From positions 62,001-126,000 of the forward strand of contig JAIQFT010000009.1 of assembly GCA_020073185.1 (NCBI GenBank): DNA of 64,000 nt, given 5' to 3'. Made by a program: the position numbers and the translations under genes. A model generated the notes under the pieces. It saw only the letters and a list, made by a program, of their open reading frames with translations, had not been told where the DNA came from and made no database searches. Shown piece by piece: positions 2,352 through 47,128 of the stretch (positions are counted from its first letter, which is position 1; each line of letters starts with the position of its first letter). This stretch comes from Terriglobia bacterium. Lineage in GTDB: Bacteria; Acidobacteriota; Terriglobia; Terriglobales; Acidobacteriaceae.

Positions 2352-3371
2352 TTACCCGCCGATATGCACCATCGTCCTTGAGGCCGGCACAAAGTCCGGC
2401 TCACCGATGCGGTGGCGCGCTTCCTTACGCTGGATGACTTTACGGAGGAATGCCGCCAAGTCGTCGTCCGAACCGCCCTGCCTCATGACCGACGCCAGAT
2501 CGTGGTCGAAAGCTGAAAACAGACAAGTGCGGATTTTCCCGTCCGAGGTGACGCGCACCCGGCTGCAGTGCCCGCAGAAGGGATGCGAAACCGGCGCGAT
2601 GATCCCGATCTCGCCCACGCCGTCGTCGAAGCGGTAACGCCGCGCTGTCTCGCTGCGCTCGTGGGGAATTTCCCGCAGCGGCCGAAACTCCGCCATGCGC
2701 TCCAGGATTTGCTCCAGCCGCACCACGATTTCCGGCGACCACACCCGATCTTCTTCCAGCGGCATGAACTCAATGAAGCGCACCACCACGCCTTCTTCGC
2801 GCGCGAACCTGCCGAAAGCGGGAATCTGATCGTCGTTAAAGCCGCGCAGCAGCACGCAGTTGACTTTCACCGGCGACAGTCCCACCCGCCGCGACTCCCG
2901 CACTCCCGCCAGCACCGCCTCGAAGCCGTTGGACACGCGGGTAATGCGCGCAAACCGCTCCGCATCGACCGCGTCCATGCTGACCGTGACCCGCCGCAGC
3001 CCTGCGTCTTTCAGCGGCTGCGCCAAGTCCGCCAGCAGGTGTCCGTTGGTCGTGATCGCGATGTCCAGCGCCTCGCCGTCAAGGGTACGCAGGCGCGCCA
3101 ACTCGCGGACAAATTCCACCACGCCATGCCGCAGCAGCGGTTCTCCGCCCGTGATTCGCACCTTCGTAATTCCCAGCGACGTGAGCACGCGCGCGATGCG
3201 CAAGTAATCGGAGAACGGCAACTCGGCGTAAAGCGCGCCCTGGTTCCCGGTGCGGCAGTACACGCACTTGTAATTGCAGCGGTCGGTGATGGCGATGCGC
3301 AGATCGGTAATGGCGCGCCCGTACTTGTCCGTCAGCCGCGTATCCCGTGCGAGTTCAGCGATCGCCGCCAT
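2352..3371 (-). CDS. moaA: GTP 3',8-cyclase MoaA (molybdenum cofactor biosynthesis)
   Basis: Radical SAM enzyme that starts molybdopterin synthesis by converting GTP to 3',8-cyclo-GTP. The N-terminal cluster motif is CNYKCVYC (CxxxCxxC), followed by TGGEPLLR. The C-terminal second 4Fe-4S motif is CGHCSRVRVTSDGKIRTC, and the protein ends in the Gly-Gly typical of MoaA (VHIGG). The frame is open to 3530, but starting at the ATG at 3371 gives 339 aa, matching the family, whereas the upstream extension (MQVETPAPP...) is atypical. Other moa genes are not nearby, so moaA is solitary here. MsrP, a molybdopterin enzyme, is encoded at 59803-60747 and would use the product. Confidence 0.95.
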   Translation of the reverse strand: MAAIAELARDTRLTDKYGRAITDLRIAITDRCNYKCVYCRTGNQGALYAELPFSDYLRIARVLTSLGITKVRITGGEPLLRHGVVEFVRELARLRTLDGEALDIAITTNGHLLADLAQPLKDAGLRRVTVSMDAVDAERFARITRVSNGFEAVLAGVRESRRVGLSPVKVNCVLLRGFNDDQIPAFGRFAREEGVVVRFIEFMPLEEDRVWSPEIVVRLEQILERMAEFRPLREIPHERSETARRYRFDDGVGEIGIIAPVSHPFCGHCSRVRVTSDGKIRTCLFSAFDHDLASVMRQGGSDDDLAAFLRKVIQRKEARHRIGEPDFVPASRTMVHIGG

Positions 3372-3673
3372 ACCATGCTCGCAAACTGAAAACTCAAAGT
3401 CTGGCTGAAACTGGGAGCTCAGGGCGGACTCACGTGACAGCCGGAGAACGCTGTCCACTGGAAGGCGTTTCCTTTCCAAGTGGCCCATCCTGCCGATGGG
3501 CACGGGAGGCGCCGGCGTTTCCACCTGCACCCTGATCCCGGTTCAACCACGCCGGGAGTCGCCGCCGGGACCATGGTATCCCTGAAGGTCCAGACGGTCG
3601 GAAACCACGCACCGTATTATAGATGCACTCGTCAAGCTCCGGGGTTCGCAAGCCCGGCGGAGGGTTGCCTCAA

Positions 3674-42337: not shown

Positions 42338-43552
42338 TCACGGTAGTACCTGGTAGTGAGTGGTCATCCCGGACGTCATGTGGTCCGACACATGGCAGTG
42401 AAACATCCAGATACCAGGGTTGTCCGGAACCATATCGGCGGTCACGAACGTAGCCGGCGATAACGGCAGAATATCCGTGCGCTGCCCGGCAACGGTCACC
42501 ACATTGCCGTGCCAATGCGGCGTGTGGAAGTTGAAGCCATCTCCCATGGACAGCAGGTACCAGCGCACATGCTCCCCTACCTTCATCGTCATCATAGGGC
42601 CGTTTCCGTACATGTAGCCGTTGATCGTGGCCTTGTGGTTCACGATGGCAAACCCCCGGCCCAGCACCAGGTGTGCATTGCCGTCGGGATCGGCGGGCAC
42701 TGCCTCCAGTTTGTCGATGGATTTCGGATCGCCCGCATAGGTGTCGATGTTGTGCCGGAGGTACGGGCTCTGATTCTCGTCAATGATCATGAACAGAGCC
42801 GCGAATTCGCGATCCACATCTTTGGGGCTGCCGTCGGGACGGGCCATGCCTCGGCGCGTAATCACCATCGGACCAATCAGGCCGGCATTCACATCCTTCG
42901 GTTCGTAATTGTGCGAGTGATACAGCCAGACGATGGAACTCGGGTCGTTCGGTCCCGGCCCCGCTCGCTCCGGCACTTCCCAGGTGTAGACGTGGGTCTG
43001 GTGAGGCGGCACCAGGCCGGTCTGCTCCATTGTCATGTCCGGATAGGGCGCACCTTCCGAGTCTTTCTTATACGACACGCCATGCGGATGCATACTGTAC
43101 GGCTGCGATGCGTTGTTGCGGAAAACGACCTTGATCGTGTCTCCAACCTCGGCACGGATCAGCGGACCCATCATGCCGAGGTGCTCCCACTCCGGAGGAC
43201 GCTTCTTCAGCGTGGCGAATGTCTCGTCCGTGTACTCTCGGTAGATCGCCTTGCGGTAGACCTTGCCGATCCGGTTCTTCGCCTGCTCCACAAAGATCTT
43301 GCCGTAGGCGTCGAATTTGCCCCCGCTGCTCATGTGATCTTGGTTGCTGGGGGTATAGTCCCATTCGACCTCGTCGGCCGCAATGTAGTAAGTCCGAACC
43401 TTGCCCGCTGGCACCGCCCGCTTCGCCCGGCTGCTTGCGGTCTTCGAAGCTCCCGCCAATTGTCCGCCGCTTGCGGATTGCGCACTGAGAGTAAGAGCTG
43501 CCGCCCAAACCAGCACGGCACACACAACGCCTACACGAACGTCCTTTGCCAT
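42338..43552 (-). CDS. Secreted multicopper oxidase
   Basis: This 404-aa protein has a signal peptide (VVCAVLVWAAALTLSAQS). Copper ligands are seen in SMHPHGV and WLYHSHNYEP (first half) and in FHTPHWHGN and MFHCHVSDHMTSGM (C terminus, with the type 1 Cys and Met). Two cupredoxin domains are present, as in small laccase or ceruloplasmin-like enzymes. Substrate may be cuprous ion, phenols or Mn; not decidable. It is transcribed divergently from the OsmC-like gene. Confidence 0.92.
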   Translation of the reverse strand: MAKDVRVGVVCAVLVWAAALTLSAQSASGGQLAGASKTASSRAKRAVPAGKVRTYYIAADEVEWDYTPSNQDHMSSGGKFDAYGKIFVEQAKNRIGKVYRKAIYREYTDETFATLKKRPPEWEHLGMMGPLIRAEVGDTIKVVFRNNASQPYSMHPHGVSYKKDSEGAPYPDMTMEQTGLVPPHQTHVYTWEVPERAGPGPNDPSSIVWLYHSHNYEPKDVNAGLIGPMVITRRGMARPDGSPKDVDREFAALFMIIDENQSPYLRHNIDTYAGDPKSIDKLEAVPADPDGNAHLVLGRGFAIVNHKATINGYMYGNGPMMTMKVGEHVRWYLLSMGDGFNFHTPHWHGNVVTVAGQRTDILPLSPATFVTADMVPDNPGIWMFHCHVSDHMTSGMTTHYQVLP

Positions 43553-43770: not shown

Positions 43771-44253
43771 ATGGCTGAGGTCGTATATGTCTCCAACGTC
43801 AAGATTGAGCGCAAGTCCGGACCATTGCGCGTCGCCGAGCTTCCCGGAGAGTCCCAGCCGGTAAGCTTCAGCGTGCACGGCGCCATCGCCAAGCATTACG
43901 GCATCGATATCGCACGTCTGAAGGAATCCCATGCCGCCACCATCGATTACGTGGTCGCGGCACTGGGCGGTTGAATGTTGGGCACCTTTGCCGGGGCGCT
44001 GGATGCGCGCCAGATTGATGCCAAGCATGGCCGCCTGGTAGCCGAAGTTCGGGGAGAGATCGAATCCGACGACGGCGTCCTCGTGATCCGCCGCGTGCAC
44101 GTGAAATTCTTGCTCAAAGCGCCCGACACCGTGCGCGAAACCGTGGACCGCGTGCATGGTATTTATAAGGACAAGTGCCCGGTCTATCGCACCTTGCGTC
44201 CGGCCATGGAAATCACTTCCGCTTGCGAACTCGTGCCGGAAACCGGGGCCTGA
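43771..44253 (+). CDS. OsmC family protein, predicted selenoprotein (in-frame UGA at 43972)
   Basis: GAGGTGGCAC stands before the ATG at 43771. The frame runs 67 codons to TGA (43972-43974) and continues without another stop to 44253. Joined, the 160-residue product is a complete OsmC-like domain: a first half ending IDYVVAALGG, then Sec, then MLGTFAGALDARQIDAKHGR and VIRRVHVKFLLKAPD, ending in KCPVYRTLRPAMEITS. In OsmC/Ohr relatives the redox-active Cys sits exactly at that place, at the start of the central helix. A hairpin suitable as bacterial SECIS starts 21 bases after the UGA. Read as two genes, neither half would fold. Sec in place of Cys would make a stronger peroxidase or thiol reductant. 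The alternative is a nonsense mutation. Confidence 0.8.
43995..44011 (+). promoter_or_regulatory. Candidate bacterial SECIS hairpin of the OsmC-like gene
   Basis: GGCGC (43995-43999) pairs with GCGCC (44007-44011) around the loop TGGATGC. The loop starts 26 bases after the UGA and has G as second base. Distance and loop fit the loose consensus for SelB-binding elements. Confidence 0.5.
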
Positions 44254-44342: not shown

Positions 44343-47063
44343 CTATGGCGACAAACGCTCACGTGCGCCTGTGTCGCCGCTCACCGCTTGCTGTGACGCG
44401 CTCGCGCTTAGCAGGTTCACGAACAGCCGCACCGCGCCCGGCACCCCCGCCGGCAGTTGGCGGAAGAACGCGTACCCCGTGTAGATATAGAATCCCTTCC
44501 CGTACGGCGCCACCAGCAGGCCACCCTCACGCGCCGGCTCCTCCGGGTCGTGCGACGACAGCAGCGGCTTGAAATGCGGGTCCCACGAGCCCATGAAGTA
44601 GAGTCCGCGCTCCTGCACCCATCCCTTGAAATCGCCCTCGCCGATCCGGTTCGGCGAGCGGAATATCGGGTTCGCCGCATCCAGAATCTGCACTGGCGCT
44701 TCCTCCACCGTGACCCGCTCGTAGCTGAGCGACGCCGGATACGGCGTGAAGTGTCCGGCGTTAAACACGCCCATCGAGGCGTTGTACTGCACCAGCAGGG
44801 TGCCGCCGTTGTTCACGTAATCGAGCAGCCGCCGGTTGTACGCCCGCACATCGGTGCGCACATCGTAGGTCCGGATGCCGAGCACGATGGTGTGAAACCG
44901 GCTCAGGTCGCCCGATGCGAGGTCCCCCGGCGTGATCATCTCCACCTGCACCCCCAGTTGCTGCAGCACGGTCGGGATGTCGTCGCCCGCGCCCATGATG
45001 TACCCGACGCGCAAATTCGCCGGCGCCATCACGTCCACCGCGCTCACCTTTTGCTCCGCCGGCCGGTAATAATAAAAATCGCCGATGTCGCGCCGCCCGA
45101 TGATCTCGTAGCCTTCCGCGTACTGCTTGCCGTCGTACTCGAGCACCGCCCGCAGCGGAAGAACTCCCTCCCGCATCTCCGCCGGCGTAACATGGAACGT
45201 GTAATGCTTGGATTCGCCGCCCGCGCTGAATTCGGCCGGCTGCGATTCCGGCGTGACTCGCCATCCCCTCGGCGCATGCAGGCGCACCGCTCCCTGCGTC
45301 ACGCCGTTCACGTTGTTACGAACTCCAACCGTGACCGCGATTGCGCCATCGCGATGCGTGGAAGTCACCTGTACCGGCGGATCCACTTCGATGGCAAGCG
45401 GCGGCCCGACCGCCAGCGGCCTTTCCGACTGCCCATAAGTCGGATCAATGAACTTCACCTTCGCCACCGAAGATATGCTGCCCGTGTTTTCGGCCAGCTT
45501 GAAGGACGCGTGCGCCTGGACCGGCCACGGCGGCAGTGGCAGCGTCGCGTACAGCGGATCGTCAATTGTGTACACCGCCTGTAGCGGGTCGTCGCGATGC
45601 CAGTACGGCCGTGTGTAACGCGCATCACCGGGAACTGTGACCTGGAATTGCGCCCACGCCTGCTCGTTGGACGCCAGCGTGCGCAGTTCCGACTTCACCT
45701 TCGTCGCTTGCCATCCCGCCGGAAGCTCCAGTTCAATGTCCTTCGCCGTGATCGTCTGCCGCCCGCGGTTGTAGAGCCGCGCCGTCACCGTGAATGTCTG
45801 GCCCGGTACCGCCATTTGAAACGTCTCTTCCTGACGAAAGAATCCGAAAAACGACTGTTGCCGTTCCGCGTCAACTGACGCATCCAACTCCATCCCGAGC
45901 GCCAGATTGGCTGCTTCCTCAAGCTGCCGCTGCTTGGTCCGCAGGTCCGTCAACACTTTAGCTTTGCCGGCCGGCGATAGTTGAGCAGCGTTCACTTGCT
46001 CGATCAGCACATTGATCTGCTTCAGCCCCGTGAGCAGTGGCGCAGCCGACGGCGACGGATCAGTCGGTTTGAACGCCGCCGCGGCATCGTCCACCGCCTT
46101 CGCGATTGCCGCCAGTGCAGGCCGCAGAAATGGCGCGTTCCCCTCTTCGCTGCCCAATCGTGCAGCAATCCCGGGTAAGGTTGTGTCAATCCCGTCGAAA
46201 AATCCGTTCTCCATCGCCGCACCCGCCGGCAGCACCGAGTCCACCAGCCTGTATGTGCGAAACAGGTTTCCCGGCGGGTTGTAGAAGCCGCCGACTCCCT
46301 GCGACATCTGGTGCTTCAGCCCCTCGGTGGCGAACTGCGCAAACGACGTTCCCAGGACCGGGTCATATGTGCCCACGTTCAGCCGCAGATTGGCGCCATC
46401 CTCACCGCGAATGTTGCCGATGTAGAGCTTCTTGGCCTGCCACGGAAACAGCCCTTCGCGAATCTGTTCGGGAAACCGCTTCGAATCGGCGGCGGCGCGA
46501 AATGCCTCTCGCGACAGAATGCCGGATGCCTGATGATTGCCATGCCCGTCCCGCCCGCTCCCGTCGAAGCGCGACACGATCACATCAGGCCGGAAGGTGC
46601 GGATCACGCGCACCATGTCGGCAAGCGCCGCGTCGTGTCCTCTCCACTTTTGAAACGTCTCGTCGGCGGTCTTGGAATATCCGAAATCGACCACGCGCGT
46701 AAAGCGCTGCTCCACTCCGTAAAAGCGGTCCGCTTCCAGCAACTCCAGCGTGCGCAGGATTCCAAGCTCATCCGACAGCGCCGCGCCGAACTTGTTCTGC
46801 CCGCCCTCGCCGCGGTTGAGCGTGAGCATCATCGTCTCCGCGCCCTGTCCGCGCGACTCGTAAGCGAGCATGCTGCCGTCGTCGTCGTCCGGGTGTGCGG
46901 TGGTGTGCAGTAAGCGCGCCGTGGTGCGCAGGCGGGAAAGCATCTCCACCAGCGCATTGGAACCACGGTCCGGGGCGGGAATTTCCTGCGCAATCCCCGC
47001 CCCACATGCCAGAACCACGGCGATGACAACGGTAGTCAGCCTCGACCGCAACCTGTGCGCCAT
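44343..47063 (-). CDS. Secreted PIG-L family deacetylase with C-terminal extension
   Basis: This 906-aa protein has a signal peptide (LTTVVIAVVLACGAG). The PIG-L zinc site is TTAHPDDDDGSML, with NRGEGGQNKFG and SGRDGHGNHQASG supplying the other ligands (residues about 55-230). Then follow beta-rich regions with an NPCBM/NEW3-like segment (ELPAGWQATKVKSELRTL) and a C-terminal class I glutamine-amidotransferase-like fold (VLGIRTYDVRTDVRAYNRRL, NNGGTLLVQYN). PIG-L enzymes de-N-acetylate sugars, and large secreted versions are common in Acidobacteriota. The ATG at 47063 has GAGGAGAGAGG before it. Confidence 0.9.
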   Translation of the reverse strand: MAHRLRSRLTTVVIAVVLACGAGIAQEIPAPDRGSNALVEMLSRLRTTARLLHTTAHPDDDDGSMLAYESRGQGAETMMLTLNRGEGGQNKFGAALSDELGILRTLELLEADRFYGVEQRFTRVVDFGYSKTADETFQKWRGHDAALADMVRVIRTFRPDVIVSRFDGSGRDGHGNHQASGILSREAFRAAADSKRFPEQIREGLFPWQAKKLYIGNIRGEDGANLRLNVGTYDPVLGTSFAQFATEGLKHQMSQGVGGFYNPPGNLFRTYRLVDSVLPAGAAMENGFFDGIDTTLPGIAARLGSEEGNAPFLRPALAAIAKAVDDAAAAFKPTDPSPSAAPLLTGLKQINVLIEQVNAAQLSPAGKAKVLTDLRTKQRQLEEAANLALGMELDASVDAERQQSFFGFFRQEETFQMAVPGQTFTVTARLYNRGRQTITAKDIELELPAGWQATKVKSELRTLASNEQAWAQFQVTVPGDARYTRPYWHRDDPLQAVYTIDDPLYATLPLPPWPVQAHASFKLAENTGSISSVAKVKFIDPTYGQSERPLAVGPPLAIEVDPPVQVTSTHRDGAIAVTVGVRNNVNGVTQGAVRLHAPRGWRVTPESQPAEFSAGGESKHYTFHVTPAEMREGVLPLRAVLEYDGKQYAEGYEIIGRRDIGDFYYYRPAEQKVSAVDVMAPANLRVGYIMGAGDDIPTVLQQLGVQVEMITPGDLASGDLSRFHTIVLGIRTYDVRTDVRAYNRRLLDYVNNGGTLLVQYNASMGVFNAGHFTPYPASLSYERVTVEEAPVQILDAANPIFRSPNRIGEGDFKGWVQERGLYFMGSWDPHFKPLLSSHDPEEPAREGGLLVAPYGKGFYIYTGYAFFRQLPAGVPGAVRLFVNLLSASASQQAVSGDTGARERLSP

Positions 47064-47128
47064 CCTCTCTCCTCGGAAACAGACGAGCATAAACGAAGAT
47101 GAGCCGGCGGCCGCGGGCGCTTCAGAAT

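Follow-up and report, generated by a model that had tools for sequence, protein, structure and literature searches.

Ohr and OsmC enzymes reduce organic hydroperoxides by means of a peroxidatic and a resolving cysteine and are recycled by lipoylated proteins, and the active site of Ohr is completed by an arginine and a glutamate (consulted portions of PMC5962072 and PMC8945050). Proteins of the YhfA type keep both cysteines, the arginine and the glutamate being absent (PMC8945050, same portion). OsmC-like selenoproteins have been predicted from metagenomes: the consulted parts of two reports give three sequences from the Sargasso Sea (PMC1088965) and list five from the GOS data (PMC2398784), with the motif UxxT in both sets. 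Reviews of 2022 and 2026, in the sections consulted, treat OsmC-like selenoproteins as one family with UxxT.

Here, we describe a gene from a 64,000-nucleotide contig stretch of a soil Terriglobia bacterium (the window; all positions without a locus name refer to it). The gene very probably encodes a single OsmC-fold protein with selenocysteine (Sec) in its active site, a reading drawn from the sequence and its conservation. The initial annotation had mentioned that OsmC-like selenoproteins had been predicted in metagenomes; this is so, but the reported family is the UxxT one, from which that of the window differs. The NCBIfam model NF041052 (OsmC_like_Se) appears to describe the UxxT family because one of its members, L160 (1501–1944, forward strand, 178.7 bits), carries the motif U-L-L-T. 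Like this family, the window protein belongs to the OsmC superfamily and has a UGA at the first redox cysteine and a late cysteine, and the sequence that follows the UGA in L160 can be drawn as a hairpin, as it can in the window’s family. In contrast, the window protein scores 19.2 bits on NF041052 (cut-off 95), and its motif is GGUMLGTF (U-x-x-G-T) where L160 reads AFULLTQL. The best match of L160 among the rows of the window’s family has an E-value of 2e-4 (to L156), and its E-value is about 0.3 to the window’s close relatives. Members of NF041052 over the cut-off occur in 2 of 396 genomes of the phylum, and both of these members (L160 and L161) are without U/C-x-x-G-T; the genome that carries L160 (G732) also has a gene of the window’s type. 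The low score on NF041052 together with the U-x-x-G-T motif sets the window’s family apart from UxxT: it is a distinct subfamily of predicted OsmC selenoproteins that is widespread in Acidobacteriota. A literature search that covered portions of open-licence PMC papers found no description of it, and the term ‘osm’ is absent from the main text of the deep-Sep paper, which tested an acidobacterium (PMC12013277).

One OsmC gene with an in-frame UGA

The gene occupies positions 43771–44253 of the forward strand. It begins with an ATG that is preceded by GAGGTGG both in the window and in its relative L020, and ends with a TGA at 44251–44253; the only interruption between the two is another TGA, in the same frame, at 43972–43974. 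The list of open reading frames splits the gene at this codon, as ordinary gene finders do. From these two same-frame ‘genes’, parted by nothing but the TGA, the initial annotation had assembled one complete OsmC-like domain with the UGA at the redox cysteine and with a SECIS-like hairpin whose loop lay about 26 bases downstream, and the analysis bears out each element of that proposal. Read through the UGA, the gene yields 160 residues that match Pfam PF02566 (OsmC) with an E-value of 1.2e-12 and 48.5 bits (cut-off 27.5). The UGA, which would encode Sec68, occupies the site of the first OsmC redox cysteine: the alignment with cysteine-containing homologs that the initial annotation had suggested places it on the cysteine of the Cys-type relatives, and it also aligns with the cysteine of the solved chains 1ukk and 1ml8. 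The second OsmC-type cysteine, Cys136, is encoded by a TGC at 44176–44178 (forward strand) within the stretch KDKCPVYR and is the likely resolving residue. Three other OsmC paralogs of the same genome (L009–L011) give matches free of internal stops.

The gene is flanked by a divergent multicopper oxidase gene (42338–43552, reverse strand) and a convergent gene for a protein with NPCBM-associated and PIG-L domains (44343–47090, reverse strand), neither of which shows any sign of belonging to the system. Clustering of open reading frames of at least 110 amino acids around the window gene and 19 of the 23 loci of the contig scan described below revealed no operon partner; a single cluster was present at three or more loci (four loci, L039 among them), and we read it, from its first residues, as a TonB-receptor-like protein. 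Elsewhere in the window, a molybdenum cofactor riboswitch (RF01055, 53.6 bits, cut-off 36) at 3453–3615 of the reverse strand overlaps the start of an open reading frame at 2352–3530 of the same strand, whose CNYKCVYC stretch leads us to assume a radical SAM protein of the MoaA type.

The catalytic codon in related genes

In named genome contigs, a scan for the protein recovered 23 loci, of which 22 come from groups titled Acidobacteriota and one (L039) from a contig that is titled Acidimicrobiia and that we suspect to be mislabelled; beyond Acidobacteriota, homologs were sought in genomes by one single-protein scan, which picks up close relatives. Among 399 genomes of the class, 97 have a match at an E-value of up to 0.001. 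These comprise 73 with a TGA-bearing match to the family (G258, G391 and G381 being counted without a reading at the DNA level), six with the cysteine form only, and 18 with fragments or weak matches to other OsmC proteins. In the phylum as a whole, 40 of 396 genomes gave a match, so the majority of the sampled genomes are without such a gene. A search of plasmids returned no match to the window protein, and none of 30 pattern matches in viral contigs was confirmed.

The codon at the catalytic site was read in 132 related loci, after two of 134 had been dropped (L042, which reads N at the site, and the partial L126). It is TGA in 125 loci and TGC, for cysteine, in seven; no other codon occurs, and TAA or TAG is found in none. 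As a gene may be represented among the 132 loci by near-copies that stem from two collections, the counts below are given for distinct sequences (107 with UGA and seven with cysteine). In the smaller set that preceded the addition of the phylum rows, TGA was found in 99 of 111 loci and cysteine in 12, five of which were distant OsmC proteins. The cysteine forms of the window’s own family (L113–L119, from seven genomes) make up one clade (100/99) in a tree whose deep branching is open. Around the site, G71, T72 and L77 are present in all of 86 distinct UGA genes and in all seven cysteine genes, and Cys136 is retained in 85 of the former and in all of the latter.

An OsmC gene that had died and acquired a nonsense mutation would likewise show an interrupted frame under translation table 11, and a few copies elsewhere are indeed broken. 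The identical gene sequences L040 (6001–6459) and L084 (1441–1899), which stem from two collections, keep the UGA and have a frame that breaks before the second cysteine, so that the C-terminal part is lost, perhaps in a decaying gene; the copy in G104 is in fragments. Such decay around the UGA, which the initial annotation had named as the sign that would count against its proposal if found in sister strains, is not what these strains display: the sister genomes keep the UGA, and the few broken copies are found elsewhere. The near-uniform TGA at one codon, never replaced by TAA or TAG, argues against a pseudogene, as does the purifying selection that acts on the coding part after the UGA in the four relatives measured (Ka/Ks of about 0.21, 0.15, 0.10 and 0.18, with Ks near saturation for some). 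We regard a pseudogene as the least credible of all readings of the locus, with next to no chance of being correct.

Alternatively, the UGA might be a true stop after which translation restarts at the ATG at 43975 and the two halves assemble. The TGAATG junction of the window would suit such a split gene, and an ATG follows the UGA in 59 of the 107 distinct UGA genes; the other 48, however, have a leucine codon there (CTG in 37, CTC in eight, CTA in two and CTT in one), and a methionine occupies the same place in six of the seven cysteine genes, which are not split. Moreover, the break would fall midway in a predicted helix (residues 58–79), and a split gene would predict neither the conservation of the hairpin nor the link to SelB that are described below. 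We therefore consider a split gene highly improbable and return to the reading of the UGA as a Sec codon.

The downstream hairpin and the Sec machinery

A hairpin of the bacterial SECIS type spans positions 43993–44011 of the forward strand. Its loop, UGGAU (44000–44004), tops an upper stem of four pairs, below which lies a G·G mismatch. Counted from the U of the UGA as position 1, pairs 22–28/34–40 enclose the five-base loop and the mismatch of the window is at 24/38. In the consulted portion of a 2026 review, the bacterial SECIS model consists of a loop of 3–9 nucleotides, an upper stem of 4–16 base pairs, a G within the first two nucleotides of the loop, a spacing of 16–37 nucleotides from the UGA, and a minimum free energy (MFE) of −7.5 or lower (PMC13188914). 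The hairpin of the window agrees with this model in its five-nucleotide loop with G in second position, its four-pair upper stem, a UGA-to-loop distance that measures 25 nucleotides, and an energy of −11.1 kcal/mol for 19 nucleotides or −12.6 kcal/mol for 21.

The first three loop bases are UGG in every one of the 107 distinct UGA genes. At codon +9, the third base of which supplies the loop G, all 107 have CTG, as do four of the seven cysteine genes, against a background in which CTG makes up 0.40 of leucine codons. At +8, alanine is encoded by GCG in 74 of 86 UGA genes and in two of seven cysteine genes; at +11 the two groups do not differ (70 of 86 and five of seven). When 113 codon columns are ranked by synonymous bias, +9, +11 and +8 take ranks 2, 3 and 5; the Fisher p-values for comparisons between UGA and cysteine genes or their genomes count related sequences as though they were independent, and their value is descriptive only. 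The strongest bias of all is found upstream of the UGA, at the serine codon −34 (AGC in 36 of 45, from the set of 86 distinct genes), and the glycine that directly precedes the UGA is encoded by GGT in 58 of 86.

The five inner pairs of the stem are complete in 89 of the 107 UGA genes and in none of the seven cysteine genes; among the 18 UGA genes in which the full five-pair stem is missing, some fold another hairpin, and the family f13 folds an alternative one. Paired changes are found in the stem as well: U-A replaces C-G at pair 26/36 in five rows, and at pair 27/35 A-U replaces G-C in 11 rows, 10 of which are distinct, both changes being spread over several families of the phylum. Over the seven pairs, the paired cells amount to 94% for group A, 78% for group B and 67% for the cysteine genes, compared to a maximum of 60%, 54% and 63%, respectively, when one strand is slid against the other, the two groups having been split by a rough pattern that misplaces some rows. 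The figure for the cysteine genes is thus close to the slid controls. Measures of stability are less telling. The 61-nucleotide region after the UGA has no extra stability relative to shuffles (z of 0.39), and relative to synonymous recodings the mean z is −0.73 for 83 UGA genes versus −0.20 for 12 cysteine genes, five of them distant OsmC proteins. As these MFE tests are weak, the case for the hairpin is built on synonymous conservation and covariation.

The genome from which the window derives (G000; 4.66 Mb, 100% complete) contains every component that the initial annotation had proposed to look for under the names selA, selB, selC and selD: a tRNA-Sec with the anticodon TCA, SelA (554.9 bits, cut-off 267.9), SelB (366 bits, cut-off 242.25) and SelD (365.2 bits, cut-off 125). 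The selD gene itself (L017, contig C65) reads AAG-UGA-ASK, which makes it the second UGA gene of this genome, and its in-frame TGA probably encodes Sec. In another genome (G185, contig C24, 146548–149819, reverse strand), the UGA-OsmC gene and selB are about 950 bases apart.

Across the class, SelB passes its family cut-off in 70 of the 73 genomes with a UGA-OsmC gene, in 212 of the 326 others and in none of the six that have the cysteine form only, where passes were judged by best E-values and the doubtful genomes and all six cysteine-only ones were confirmed individually. The three UGA genomes without SelB over the cut-off (G038, G015 and G190) are 82, 88 and 90% complete, and the SelB match of G190, with 228.5 bits over model positions 88–578, indicates a truncated SelB. 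Completeness is 94–97% in three of the cysteine-only genomes (G126, G102 and G261) and 89, 71 and 72% in G351, G348 and G333. The last of these has a 28.6-bit match to the final 61 positions of the SelB model and, where a contig ends, a piece that scores 95 bits; these could be parts of a split SelB. G098 carries a cysteine form, a UGA copy and SelB.

Considering (i) the complete Sec machinery, (ii) a hairpin in agreement with the SECIS model, (iii) the cysteine-only genomes without SelB over the cut-off, and (iv) the use of UGA as the gene’s own end codon, it is highly implausible that the UGA is suppressed and read as cysteine or tryptophan without Sec, even though relatives have a cysteine at the same position. 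In the mechanism that we favor, SelB with Sec-tRNA-Sec would dock on the hairpin 25 nucleotides after the UGA, and the ribosome would insert Sec at codon 68 and read on as far as the UGA at 44251.

Fold, redox chemistry and subfamily

A 27-member profile of the family finds 1ukk, 2onf and 1ml8 in the PDB. In 1ukk and 1ml8, the cysteine of the GC motif aligns with residue 68 of the family and the C-terminal cysteine with residue 136. An AlphaFold2 model built from 19 sequences has a mean pLDDT of 82, with values below 50 for residues 37–45 and 51–55. It places residue 68 within the helix 58–79 and residue 136 between the helices 119–135 and 137–142. Among the 50 matches that a Foldseek search of the PDB listed for this model, the titles are those of OsmC, Ohr, redox, or hypothetical and structural-genomics proteins, with TM scores of 0.42–0.55 over the whole monomer. 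The best 32 rows of a second structural comparison bear titles of similar kinds; they include 3cje (Z of 11.7, rmsd of 2.9, 126 aligned residues) and, second by Z, 1ml8 (Z of 10.7, rmsd of 1.9, 97 aligned residues), over a background of SAM synthetases at a Z of 8.0 and below.

The two redox residues (U68 and C136), the central helix and the CP motif of the Ohr/OsmC peroxidases are all present. The window’s family shares with the OsmC and Ohr hydroperoxide reductases (1ukk, 1n2f) the fold, the first redox position and the CP at the second cysteine, and differs from them in having Sec for cysteine and in that the glutamate at −10 and the catalytic arginine were not found at aligned positions; the similarity in sequence is weak (best E-value of 2.6e-5). 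Asp59, at −9 from residue 68, is invariant in 27 of 27 aligned rows and may take the role of the glutamate. With no aligned glutamate at −10 and no catalytic arginine identified, peroxidase activity is unsure.

Replacement of cysteine by Sec usually accompanies peroxide or disulfide chemistry. A selenol-based redox chemistry is likely for the window protein, and a peroxidase step, proposed from homology, has, in our estimate, a slightly better than even chance. Sec68, in the central helix, would be the attacking residue, which would probably reduce a hydroperoxide or a related oxidant and thereby become a selenenic acid; Cys136 would resolve the latter into a Se–S bond, and a dithiol reductant of the lipoyl or thioredoxin type would reset it.

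A selenoprotein without a peroxidase role, acting in redox or thiol transfer in the manner of YhfA, is a serious possibility to which we give somewhat less than an even chance. The GGC motif before the central helix and the second cysteine are shared with 1ml8, which we take to be YhfA of E. coli and which stands so high in the structural comparison; the apparent absence of the arginine–glutamate pair also makes the window’s family seem alike to the YhfA type. The presence of Sec, with the chemistry that commonly goes with it, and the invariant Asp59 in its putative glutamate role speak for peroxidase chemistry instead, and sequence similarity to the YhfA type is barely detectable (E-value of 0.0095).

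L181 (1001–1369, reverse strand) and L182 (987–1361, forward strand), with the motifs GT-U-TSIT and GA-U-TSMT, represent a third branch of OsmC proteins in which a TGA occupies this catalytic position. The branch is separate from the window’s, L181 being about 31% identical to the window protein over 101 residues, and its two members score 53–54 bits on NF041052, below the cut-off. Both of their genomes (G459 and G515) have SelB over its cut-off. After its UGA, L182 folds the hairpin UCGCGC-UGUAU-GCGCGA; L181 has the matching stretch GUCGCGC-UGUAC-GCGCGAC, yet its lowest-energy fold differs.

We tentatively propose, as a possibility that we would not put at even odds, that the window’s family is a separate subfamily in which, throughout Acidobacteriota, Sec is both ancestral and normal and the cysteine forms arose upon loss of SelB; that Sec was gained at least three times independently among OsmC proteins (in the window’s, the UxxT and the GAUTSMT families); and that the subfamily ranks with the most widespread hydroperoxidases of the Sec type in soil bacteria. 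No NCBIfam model scores the window protein over its own cut-off and gene finders split the gene at the UGA, so this conserved redox protein has probably been annotated as two fragments or missed. The family offers a natural comparison of Sec and cysteine within one small fold, in which the genomes seemingly without SelB serve as a control, and it makes the question of why OsmC proteins gain Sec testable.
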